Shown here in pieces: positions 17,609-20,490 of a stretch of 20,494 nucleotides of DNA. The position numbers and the translations under genes are program-made. Below the pieces are notes generated by a model. The model was given only the letters and a program-made list of their open reading frames with translations. It was not told the origin of the DNA and did no database searches. Positions within the stretch are counted from its first letter, which is position 1, and each line of letters begins with the position of its first letter. The stretch is from a virus, in IMG/VR virus record IMGVR_UViG_3300017957_000098, positions 1-20,494 of that record; one strand, given 5' to 3'.

Positions 17609-17863
17609 TCACTTGATTTGCGCCTTACCCGCTCTCCGATTGCGCCTGTAACTACGGTTCTTAGATGCCGCCAAAACTCCAAGATTCTTCCGGCTGTTGT
17701 CGCGAGGGTTGCCATTCTTGTGCGTAACGTCCTTCCCATCACCCTTCTTAACCTTGCCCTCCTTAACCATAGCTGCTCGGGCCGCGTTCCTCGCTGCTCG
17801 GTTTTTCTTCTGCTTCGGCTTGGAATGGTAATTCCGATATTCGGCTGCGTAATCTCGGGCCAT
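17609..17863 (-). CDS. Small HNH-like nuclease, first gene of the late operon
   Basis: An 84-residue, very basic protein. KDVTHKNGNPRDNSRKNLGV (44-63) followed by NRSY fits the second half of the HNH motif: H48 for catalysis, N50 and N60 in place of the usual Asn and His/Asn. The first Cys pair of larger HNH proteins is missing, so it is a minimal form. HNH proteins next to terminase genes help cut packaged DNA in several phages (HK97 gp74), and its position suggests a similar role. AAGGAG (17871-17876) lies 7 bases before the ATG, under the promoter at 17892-17920. Confidence 0.7.
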   Translation of the reverse strand: MARDYAAEYRNYHSKPKQKKNRAARNAARAAMVKEGKVKKGDGKDVTHKNGNPRDNSRKNLGVLAASKNRSYRRNRRAGKAQIK

Positions 17864-17891
17864 GGATGTTCTCCTTACGTTCTTAAATGAT

Positions 17892-17920
17892 ATTATACCC
17901 GAATGAATTTACAAAACCAA
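17892..17920 (-). promoter_or_regulatory. Strong sigma70-like promoter for the late minus-strand operon
   Basis: On the minus strand, TTGGTT (17915-17920) and a perfect TATAAT (17892-17897) are separated by 17 bases. Transcription would start near 17885, about 10 bases before the ribosome site of the first gene. It is the only consensus-quality promoter found for the 17.9-kb late module, and it suggests the host RNA polymerase reads it. Confidence 0.7.
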
Positions 17921-18191
17921 CATTTTAGGGTGCACACAGAACAACCGGGGTCTTATATAGCGGGGGTGGGGTCGCCGGGTAAGTCAATATCTGTAGGATT
18001 TTAGGCTAAGTAACCCCTATAGCTGTGTAATAGTGTGTTGCTGCAAGGTCATAGGTCCATGGCTCTAGGTATGCTGCACTACGCTACTCATACTCTCGCT
18101 AGAATATTTGCACCTCGACCCTTTGATTTTCTGGGCGACGCCCGGGCTGTCGTGAACCAAGCCCCTTCAGGTCTTGGCCCTTCGGGCTTCC

Positions 18192-18229
18192 ATCCCTGTC
18201 GCACCGCTCTCAGGGATTTTTCATCCCTG
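18192..18229. repeat. Three-segment switch-like inverted repeat
   Basis: ATCCCTG occurs at 18192-18198 and 18223-18229, and CAGGGAT at 18211-18217 lies between them. The middle segment can pair perfectly with either copy, not both. The first pairing leaves four to five T residues directly behind it, as in an intrinsic terminator; the second buries them in its loop. Confidence 0.6.
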
Positions 18230-18249
18230 CCGCTCGGGCAAACCCTGAA

Positions 18250-18266
18250 CAAACGCCGGGCGTTTG
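18250..18266. repeat. 17-bp palindrome, operator-like
   Basis: CAAACGCC and GGCGTTTG flank a single G. The dyad is perfect over 8 bases per arm. The tight centre suits binding of a dimeric protein better than an RNA hairpin, though a 6-bp stem with a 5-base loop is also possible. Confidence 0.5.
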
Positions 18267-18430
18267 ATCCCTTTAGGAACGACGTATCAACCCTCACCTG
18301 AACACCTCGTCCGTGCAGTGGCGCGGGCGAGAGTTTATCAGGTGGGCTTGATTCGCCGTGTCGGACGCGTCGGTAAACTCCTTGCCTCCGCGTTGCAAGG
18401 GAAGGATACGGGAATCGTGCTTACTCGCCG

Positions 18431-18487
18431 ACAGTCGCAGGGGGCACGAGCATATTTGATTTAAGCAGTCGTGCCCGTCTGCACTGT
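18431..18487. repeat. Long imperfect stem-loop
   Basis: An inner perfect 8-bp arm (GGGCACGA with TCGTGCCC, 18442-18449 and 18469-18476) extends through a 1x2 internal loop and a bulge into GCAG/CTGC and ACAGT/ACTGT, about 17 pairs in all. The loop is 19 bases and AT-rich. It is the longest single helix in this region. Confidence 0.6.
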
Positions 18488-18589
18488 CACTCGACGCACG
18501 ATGCACACCCGACCACGCTCCCGCTTTTGTGGTCTAAACCAACTGTCTTTATTGGTTCTTCAGTAGGGTTGGTGTGCGTCCCCTTGCGC

Positions 18590-18606
18590 GTAAGTATATC
18601 AAACAA
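18590..18606 (+). repeat. Direct repeat, copy 1
   Basis: GTAAGTATATCAAACAA. It matches copy 2 (18876-18892) at 15 of 17 positions in the same orientation, 286 bases apart. Neither copy lies in a gene. It may be a protein-binding or promoter-associated element. Confidence 0.45.
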
Positions 18607-18615
18607 CGTGGGATA

Positions 18616-18656
18616 GATTCGGGGCAACGGGAACGCCGTTGCCTGTTAACCGAATC
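18616..18656. repeat. 15-bp hairpin with a six-base bulge
   Basis: GATTCGG and GGCAACGG pair with CCGTTGCC and CCGAATC around a GAACG loop, with TGTTAA bulged out on the 3' side. The bulge and part of the outer arm (TTAACCG, 18646-18652) can instead pair perfectly with CGGTTAA at 18700-18706, so two folds compete. Confidence 0.6.
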
Positions 18657-18800
18657 ACGGCGCGATAATCCCCTGCGAAACAACGCAACATCACTGCAAC
18701 GGTTAAGGTGCTCGACAACAGAGCCATACCGTCTCTGTTCTCTCGCGCTTTATTAGTATTCCGTTGACCTAGTGACGTAGCATCGTTTCTTGCGCAAGCG

Positions 18801-18838
18801 TTGAAACAATTTGTCACCTCGGCAACAAATTGTGTCAA
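18801..18838. repeat. 14-bp inverted repeat, one mismatch
   Basis: TTGAAACAATTTGT (18801-18814) and ACAAATTGTGTCAA (18825-18838) match at 13 of 14 positions around a 10-base loop. No T-run follows on the plus strand. A perfect 10-bp palindrome, CTTGCGCAAG, lies just before it (18789-18798). It could be an operator, an origin element or the 3' end of a structured RNA. Confidence 0.55.
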
Positions 18839-18865
18839 GGGATTATTAAGACACGCCGCCCACGT

Positions 18866-18893
18866 TTGATCTCCGGTAAGTGTATCAAATAAT
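18866..18893 (+). promoter_or_regulatory. Candidate promoter for the right-hand plus-strand operon
   Basis: TTGATC (18866-18871) and AATAAT (18888-18893, 5 of 6 to consensus) lie 16 bases apart. Transcription would begin near 18900, shortly before the ribosome site AAAGGAGG (18914-18921) of the first gene. The -35 is only moderate. Confidence 0.4.
18876..18892 (+). repeat. Direct repeat, copy 2, inside the early promoter region
   Basis: GTAAGTGTATCAAATAA. It overlaps the spacer and -10 of the candidate early promoter, and TGTATC within it also forms a 6-bp inverted repeat with GATACA at 18895-18900. A regulator bound here would block or recruit polymerase. Confidence 0.45.
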
Positions 18894-18926
18894 CGATACA
18901 TAATCTTCAAAACAAAGGAGGCCATC

Positions 18927-19223
18927 ATGGCTAAATCAAACTACAACTCAGTCTACAGTTCACCTATCAAAGTAGAGTTCCAAGGCTTTGGGGAACTAGA
19001 AAATCTAATCGATGACTTGCGTGAGCTACTGTCAACAGCAGACCGTGGTCAGTTCAGCATGACCGCGTCAATGTACGACGAACTGCTAAAGATTCGCGAC
19101 ACAGCATTACGCGAACTCATCCAGTCTGCCGAGTCACGTCTAACATACACCAGTTACAAGTTAGACAACGTATCCGAAGTCATTATCGAAGATCGTCGCA
19201 AGCAAGAAGGAGAGGCAGCATAA
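18927..19223 (+). CDS. Hypothetical small phage protein, first gene of the early operon
   Basis: A 98-residue protein, mostly helical and acidic (FQGFGELENLIDDLRELLST at about 18-37; LKIRDTALRELIQSAESRL later). AAAGGAGG sits 5 bases before the ATG, the best ribosome site in the window. No family is recognised. It begins a plus-strand cluster of small genes running away from the late operon, which is the usual place of early, host-takeover or regulatory genes. Codon third positions are richer in C than in the late genes. Confidence 0.7.
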   Translation: MAKSNYNSVYSSPIKVEFQGFGELENLIDDLRELLSTADRGQFSMTASMYDELLKIRDTALRELIQSAESRLTYTSYKLDNVSEVIIEDRRKQEGEAA

Positions 19224-19224
19224 C

Positions 19225-19392
19225 ATGAAAACAATTCCAGCTTTTCACACACCCGCTAACTGGGAAGAGTTGATGGACTGGATAGAGGGTTGCTCACGCG
19301 ACTCTCGTCCCTTCCTCATCGTAGCCGCAGCAATGGCTTATAACCTAGCTGTATCAGAATCACAGTCAGAAACAGGAGAATCAAATGACTGA
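19225..19392 (+). CDS. Short hypothetical protein, 55 residues
   Basis: Frame MKTIPAFHTPANWEELMDWI through SRPFLIVAAAMAYNLAVSES to SNDstop. It begins one base after the previous stop, has AAGGAG/AGAGG 9-12 bases upstream, and overlaps the next gene's start by 8 bases. It has an amphipathic N-terminal helix with two Trp and an Ala-rich helical segment too short and polar-flanked to be a sure membrane span. It fills the gap between two genes neatly, which supports it; no function can be proposed. Confidence 0.65.
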   Translation: MKTIPAFHTPANWEELMDWIEGCSRDSRPFLIVAAAMAYNLAVSESQSETGESND

Positions 19393-19759
19393 TATCATCG
19401 TAGACCGCTCACCAATGCACAACGAAGAGTTCTTCAACAAGGTAGCCGACGCAATGTGGCTACTGATGGAACAACGTGTCCACAAGGCAGTCGAGGAAGC
19501 TATCGCTGCACAGTCAGTAAAGCTTGACAACGACCAACTAGACGAACGCATCAAGGATCGTCTTGAGATGTTCAGTGTCGAGGACATGGGTTTCGACCTC
19601 AGTGACTACTCATACGACCTCGACAGCATGATCGACCAACAGATTCAGTATCAAGCCGAAGACGGCGAACTGAAAGAGTGGCTCGGTCACGATGACGACA
19701 ACTTCGAGGACAGAGTTCTCAACGTCCTTCGCACTAACACGATCCGCATCGAGATCTAA
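19385..19759 (+). CDS. Acidic hypothetical phage protein
   Basis: A 124-residue strongly acidic protein. Its N-terminal half is helical (FFNKVADAMWLLMEQRVHKA, KAVEEAIAAQ), while the second half is rich in Asp, Tyr and Gln (FDLSDYSYDLDSMIDQQIQY). Very acidic early phage proteins sometimes act as DNA mimics or bind host enzymes; here this is only a possibility. AGGAG precedes the ATG, and translation is probably coupled to the 55-codon gene it overlaps. Confidence 0.65.
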   Translation: MTDIIVDRSPMHNEEFFNKVADAMWLLMEQRVHKAVEEAIAAQSVKLDNDQLDERIKDRLEMFSVEDMGFDLSDYSYDLDSMIDQQIQYQAEDGELKEWLGHDDDNFEDRVLNVLRTNTIRIEI

Positions 19760-19809: not shown

Positions 19810-20490
19810 ATGCAACACGCAATCATCTACAACGGACCAAGTCTCTTGGATGGTCAACCTATCGTAGTCATCGCTACATACTCTAACCGTAACCGCAAGA
19901 CAGGTCAGGTCGTGCAAACGTACATTCTGTGTCGCGACATCAACCCTCTCGAGGCTAGCAAGACAGGTGCCGACTTCAGCATCTGCGGCGACTGCATCAT
20001 GCGCGGCACACCTAACGACGACCCCAAACGTAAGCAAGCAACAGGCCGTCGCTGCTACGTCAACCTAGGTCAGGGTGTCCTCATCGTATGGCGTTCGTAC
20101 AAACGTGGCGTATACGAGTACGGTGACGCTCGTACCATGGGTCATGGTCGCTTCGTCCGCATCGGGACATACGGTGACCCCGCTGCCGTACCGCCGTCAG
20201 TGTGGGAGGACCTACTATCAGAAGCAGACAACTACACAGCGTACAGCCACCAGTCAGGATGGCGACCAGACATCGCAATGCAGTCAGCCGACACATACAC
20301 ACAGGCTCGTGATCACTGGCGCAATGGTCGACGCACCTTCCGCATCGTCAGAGACATCAAGGGTGTTGACTACGCTCACGAGACCCTGTGCCCGGCATCC
20401 AAAGAGGCAGGTCGTCGCGTCACCTGTCATGACTGCAAGCTATGCGCAGGTCACAAGAAAGCTAAATCAATCGCAATCGTGGAGCACTAA
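19810..20490 (+). CDS. DUF7227-like phage protein, cysteine-rich
   Basis: A 226-residue protein. Conserved-looking stretches are ICGDCIMRG (58-66), RRCYVNLGQGVLIVWRSYKRG (80-100), VRIGTYGDPAAVP (116-128), RRTFRIV (174-180) and LCPASKEAGRRVTCHDCKLCAG (193-214). C59, C62 and C82 plus C194, C206, C209 and C212 could bind metal. This set matches my memory of DUF7227, a family in actinobacterial and marine phages with no established role. AAGGAG lies about 6 bases before the ATG. The next ATG (20492-20494), with GGAG upstream, opens another gene cut off by the window edge. Confidence 0.75.
   Translation: MQHAIIYNGPSLLDGQPIVVIATYSNRNRKTGQVVQTYILCRDINPLEASKTGADFSICGDCIMRGTPNDDPKRKQATGRRCYVNLGQGVLIVWRSYKRGVYEYGDARTMGHGRFVRIGTYGDPAAVPPSVWEDLLSEADNYTAYSHQSGWRPDIAMQSADTYTQARDHWRNGRRTFRIVRDIKGVDYAHETLCPASKEAGRRVTCHDCKLCAGHKKAKSIAIVEH

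Follow-up and report, generated by a model that had tools for sequence, protein, structure and literature searches.

Promoters that work on a single strand have been described in conjugation, in which the incoming DNA is one strand. Frpo1 and Frpo2 of the F plasmid are such ssDNA promoters, and early expression in vivo depends on them (PMC9849209). On ssDNA, Frpo initiates RNA synthesis and also primes DNA synthesis, the latter in vitro (PMC7690428). Hairpin extrusion from supercoiled dsDNA in phage N4 requires, on the template strand, a C-G pair that closes the loop and a loop with 5′ G and 3′ A (PMC4496689).

The window, that is, the whole stretch of DNA analysed here, is the 20,494-base virus record IMGVR_UViG_3300017957_000098, a fragment. 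According to its terminase, portal and capsid families, the window phage is a tailed phage, and we refer to it as a marine dsDNA podovirus. Its terminase shares 58-60% identity with those of Pelagibacter phage HTVC027P, phage 023Pt_psg01 and phage DSL-LC04, and PolA-type polymerase, helicase and primase genes were present in two of these three relatives, the two that were examined. Structural and lysis genes of the window run leftward, and small genes run rightward from 18927; from this gene content, the leftward operon is presumed to be late and the rightward operon early. The region between them, 18130-18926, is free of genes and harbours a junction element followed by an array of hairpins (Table 1). 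On balance, and by a modest measure, we favour the reading of this region as a Frpo/ssi-type folded-DNA initiation region between the divergent operons, acting on the template strand.

Table 1. Features of the intergenic region of the window and its borders.
Feature	Position	Strand	Evidence and details
Leftward promoter TTGGTT-17-TATAAT, presumed late operon	17886..17929	-	Read from sequence
Junction element	18130..18204	-	Hit of the R1 covariance model at 18142-18199 (74.2 bits; E 1.8e-15, 589 kb searched)
First hairpins, including 18250-18256/18260-18266 (CAAACGCC/GGCGTTTG)	18205..18275	.	Alignment A3; C-G to T-A double change 18250-18266
Long stem 18279-18301/18338-18359 with inner hairpin 18306-18316/18321-18331	18279..18359	.	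C-G to G-C double changes 18306-18331 and 18311-18326
Stem 18414-18420/18496-18502 around 18430-18449/18469-18488, variable hairpin	18414..18502	.	Predicted on both strands
Stem 18503-18509/18571-18577 around 18511-18516/18529-18534	18503..18577	.	Fold and alignment
Multi-branched domain	18606..18865	.	Closing stems 18606-18611/18860-18865, 18658-18672/18839-18858 and 18677-18702/18761-18789; double changes 18624-18642, 18626-18640, 18671-18840, 18711-18745, 18714-18742 and 18812-18827
Hairpins of the multi-branched domain	18616-18656, 18708-18748, 18802-18837	.	Within 18606..18865
Promoter-like TTGATC-16-AATAAT	18866-18893, within 18866..18900	+	Consensus scan, weak
First rightward gene, 98 aa, presumed early	18927..19223	+	Preceded by AAAGGAGG; relatives by tblastn

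The gene-free region and its conserved fold

The preliminary description of this DNA had reported a gene-free region packed with inverted repeats, and the repeat finder indeed lists 36 inverted pairs in 18000-18950. The absence of a convincing gene, which it had also noted, agrees with the comparison of relatives, in which the ORFs are not conserved and indels of 1, 2 and 4 nt run through them. Protein coding in the array region was rejected on account of these frame-breaking indels. The RNA fold of 18120-18900 is stronger than that of shuffled sequences on both strands (z -6.9 on the plus strand and -10.3 on the minus strand; 0 of 20 shuffles as good). Scored in 120-nt windows, the array core has a mean z of -2.1/-1.9, compared with -0.4/-0.6 in coding windows, and 400-nt pieces of the array, directly ahead of the rightward genes, reach z of -4.7 to -9.8.

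IMG/VR holds relatives of the array at 82-95% identity. The covariation alignment comprised six sequences, the window and five relatives, which is a small and related set. All five relatives keep the branched fold, with a consensus of 242 pairs, 16 of which changed on both sides. Double changes from one Watson-Crick pair to another, counted in helices predicted on both strands, number 12, against a shuffle mean of 5.4 and a maximum of 10 in 1000 shuffles. Paired columns of the same alignment vary less than unpaired ones (17% vs 31%). The fold of the array is thus conserved, and the evidence is good, not decisive, because the sequences are few and related. Mismatches of the G-T and A-C types are equally rare in the array (7 vs 10); the strand test built on them was discarded as uninformative, being biased by the use of helices predicted on both strands.

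The nesting and branching proposed earlier are real: the stem 18503-18509/18571-18577 does enclose a smaller one, and the domain closed by 18606-18611/18860-18865 branches repeatedly. The block 18331-18344 had been thought to pair on both sides. Its upstream pairing (18338-18344/18295-18301) is kept, but the downstream pairing (18331-18337/18374-18380) fails in relatives, since L095 and L125 keep TAAACTC and have CGAGCTT opposite, and TAAACTC is lost in L097.

The hairpin 18430-18488 is replaced by a different stem in the relatives L012 and L095. Compared with these two, positions 18420-18490 of the window form a mosaic of near-identical blocks around one fast-changing hairpin, which suggests recombination or a hairpin swap. 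The multi-branched domain is flanked on either side by direct repeats of GTAAGTRTATCAAAYAA (18590-18606 and 18876-18892), which are 88% alike.

The leftward promoter is kept in about 30 related contigs. Because it sits to the left of the array and outside it, the structured region is not the 5′ leader of the late operon; this was rejected as the main reading, the operon having its own conserved promoter. Between the leftward promoter and the array, AGTAACCCCTA(TAG) is kept with diverging flanks (window 18010-18024, L074 4144-4164, and the equivalents in L012 and L015), and is possibly a protein-binding site. A promoter consensus scan found two sites against 1.1 expected, which is near chance. 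The site TTGATC-16-AATAAT at the right edge of the array has its AATAAT in the loop of hairpin 18881-18900, and the stretch 18866-18900 is kept in L012, L095 and L125. This conventional promoter-like site may perhaps serve the rightward genes instead. The promoter and terminator scan of the region found no intrinsic terminators, and no tRNA or tmRNA was found.

The 98-aa protein of the first rightward gene has no match in Pfam or PHROGs. The 124-aa protein encoded further downstream (19385-19759, plus strand) is very acidic, with a pI of 4.2 and a charge of about -19, and in L074 a 78-aa protein in a like position is also acidic (pI 4.05, charge -13). An antirestriction role as a DNA mimic would suit the acidic protein of the window. 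Relatives of the 226-aa cysteine-containing protein at 19810-20490 (plus strand) number in the hundreds among viral contigs and also occur in 148 phage records; it has no Pfam match.

The junction element and its genomic neighbourhood

The trail to the junction element was a 37-nt piece of the region which persists in the distant relative L074 and in microviruses. The element is composed of an inner helix GGGAU-N / N′-AGCCC, the hairpin P2 (GCCC-GAA-GGGC), the hairpin P3 (CCAAG..CTTGG), the conserved GTTCACGA, and an outer closing stem GCGAC/GTCGC. The pattern GGGATNGAAGCC-(18 to 47)-GTTCACGANAGCC matches 66 viral stretches and at least 119 bacterial-genome stretches, and 158 distinct copies were present across the loci examined. 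N and N′ form a Watson-Crick pair in 150 of the 158 distinct copies, where 64 are expected. The complement of the outer stem lies in the copy's own flank in 111 of 156 cases, against 22% for the flanks of other copies. In an alignment of 48 element sequences, 99.1% of the cells are paired and the covariation score is 0.290, compared with 0.088 in shuffles; as the search pattern fixes much of the inner helix, it is N-N′, the outer stem and P3 that carry the covariation test. Wobble pairs are rare (8 in about 750 scored).

Model R1 was built with the window copy included, and the independent finding is the exact pattern match in the F plasmid and elsewhere. R1 detects one copy only in the window, with no further copies above noise within the array, and no match in those of the named terminase relatives that were examined. 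The element does not correspond to any family in Rfam 15, whose models were run against the element loci, and searching the literature by sequence string alone, a weak probe, returned no record of it.

Four out of 120 genomes of the phylum possess the element, one of them being the Bradyrhizobium on which the search was centred; it therefore behaves as a feature of mobile elements and not as a housekeeping RNA. The genome of Bradyrhizobium nitroreducens TSA1 has nine copies, several of them clustered at 6.36-6.49 Mb. Plasmids with the element are mostly conjugative, and the copy in pK516_NDM1 belongs to the leading region, close to psiB and to an antirestriction gene. In viral contigs, DNA methyltransferases and integrases are among its neighbours. 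In 86 of 124 cases from viral and genome loci, the gene closest to the element on its 5′ side is encoded on the opposite strand (p 2e-5, as a guide only, copies that share a contig not being independent), and the 3′ side has no bias. This count took only genes of 170 aa or more, short-ORF calling around the element being noisy. Sixty-three of the opposite-strand genes on the 5′ side are in bacterial genomes, and these include 30 ArdC, four ArdA, four ParB and three SSB genes. In the microviruses L090, L091, L145 and L181, the element is intergenic and on the coding (virion) strand. The copy in L145 is 89.9% identical over 79 nt, near-identical in an unlike phage.

Folded DNA, RNA or origin

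According to the favoured reading, the minus strand, which is the template of the rightward genes, would fold into the junction element (18130-18204) and then about 700 nt of branched hairpins. The strand would be exposed by gyrase-driven, supercoiling-dependent hairpin extrusion in the manner of N4, or as the lagging-strand template in replication. The exposed fold would recruit host RNA polymerase or primase, and RNA synthesis would start rightward, giving early transcripts, replication primers, or both. We know of no ssDNA phase for the window phage.

Three lines of evidence argue for the element acting as DNA. The strand that carries it is the T-strand in the F plasmid and the virion strand in microviruses. 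In addition, wobble pairs are rare, and the P2 loops on the strand of the element are mostly of the G..A type closed by C-G, as in the N4 rule. Among these loops we found 44 C(GNA)G, 64 tetraloops closed by C-G and largely GNAT, 29 GNNA, and no TNC.

The preliminary description had taken the region for a large ornate noncoding RNA. Its large, conserved and branched single-strand structure is supported, but an RNA nature is less probable. Transcription through the array of a large structured noncoding RNA, or of a long structured 5′ leader, would agree with the strong conserved fold and its double changes, and with folds under RNA parameters as strong as those under DNA parameters. Twelve of the 29 GNNA loops also fit the RNA GNRA type, and P2 read on the complementary strand is often c(UUCG)g, which is a stable RNA tetraloop. 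However, the better RNA-parameter fold is usually on the minus strand (in the window, L074, L118, L146 and F), which is antisense to the genes that follow, and the right end of the array shows no convincing leftward promoter. Rfam gave no match, and the element, with its few wobble pairs, marks loci linked to ssDNA. RNA is less likely because the element is common to F Frpo regions, antirestriction leaders and ssDNA phages, on the template strand of the downstream genes. We consider an RNA unlikely on these grounds.

A role in replication alone, with the element as a complementary- or lagging-strand initiation signal, the array as origin DNA, and no part in rightward transcription, would suit the position between divergent operons and the intergenic copies on the virion strand of microviruses. 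The priming of DNA synthesis by Frpo in vitro (PMC7690428) points the same way. Nevertheless, the strong link of the element to the promoter side of antirestriction genes suggests a role in expression, and GC skew has no sign change at the array region, so that we hold an origin or primer site without promoter function to be improbable. A hairpin cassette of a mobile or recombination kind (REP-like or att-like), spread without a regulatory role, would explain the patchy presence, the nine copies in one Bradyrhizobium genome and the near-identity of copies in otherwise unlike phages (microvirus L145, for example), but it is very unlikely given the strong orientation bias toward neighbouring genes and the strong internal covariation, including that of the single isolated N-N′ pair.

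Tentatively, the folded-DNA initiation region would have a wider meaning: one folded-DNA regulatory element, without a record in Rfam 15, could serve conjugative plasmids, ssDNA phages and tailed dsDNA phages, and could allow the host RNA polymerase to transcribe the first genes of a dsDNA phage off a template strand that is exposed. If this is true, reading genes from folded template DNA would be a general strategy of mobile elements. R1 is a searchable marker that pulls out antirestriction and other establishment genes.

Comparison with Frpo and other known systems

Similar to GOLLD and ROOL, with which the preliminary description had compared it, the structure is large, branched, phage-borne and gene-free. 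Kinship to them was not borne out: the Rfam 15 search, including both models, gave no match to any family at the gathering score in the whole window or at E up to 5 in 17860-18940, and the neighbourhood and strand of the element point to DNA. The STAXI and C4 motifs are also structured elements near ssb and antirestriction genes and in phages. However, no scanned locus gave a match of either model to the element; for STAXI, the Rfam searches of viral, phage and plasmid loci had no match there, and the C4 antisense RNA (RF01695) had no covariance-model match at E up to 10.

Phage N4 is likewise a dsDNA podophage, and its early promoters carry a template-strand hairpin with a C(GNA)G-type loop, as in P2 of the window on the minus strand. 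They differ in being single short hairpins, compared with a branched structure of about 800 nt here, and in the use of a giant virion RNA polymerase, none of which was found among the ORFs of this 20-kb fragment. Complementary-strand origins of ssDNA phages and the ssi/sso sites of plasmids share a folded signal on the single-stranded strand, and the microvirus copies of the element are intergenic and on the virion strand.

In the leading region of ColIb-P9, which has published Frpo/ssi sites, the element is not present. Because ColIb-P9 does without it, the element is not required for Frpo activity and is an accessory of some such regions. In the F plasmid, it is present at both Frpo1 and Frpo2 (L152 12173-12092 and 17561-17480), on the opposite strand to the downstream genes. 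The window and F share the element at E 5e-9; outside it, no significant similarity to the Frpo promoter hairpins was found in the window, the best other match having E 0.27, and no convincing -35/-10 pair was found inside an array stem. The stretch CCCCTTGCG...ATCAAAC (window 18580-18610) resembles one conserved in Frpo1 and Frpo2 of F. A second shared element at these positions (CCCCTTGCG...TCAAA) is not claimed, as 5 of 300 shuffles equal its score, it was chosen post hoc, and it is weaker in L097 and L125.

The fold strength of the arrays is similar in both systems. On the minus strand, z is -8.1/-8.1 for the F arrays and -9.8/-6.6 for the window with RNA parameters, and -7.3/-6.5 and -7.4/-8.7, respectively, with DNA parameters. 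Frpo1 and Frpo2 (ssiD) of F also have the same layout in the same orientation, namely an element on the template strand, followed by a gene-free stretch rich in hairpins and, after it, the first gene; the folded strand is a T-strand there, whereas it belongs to a dsDNA phage here.
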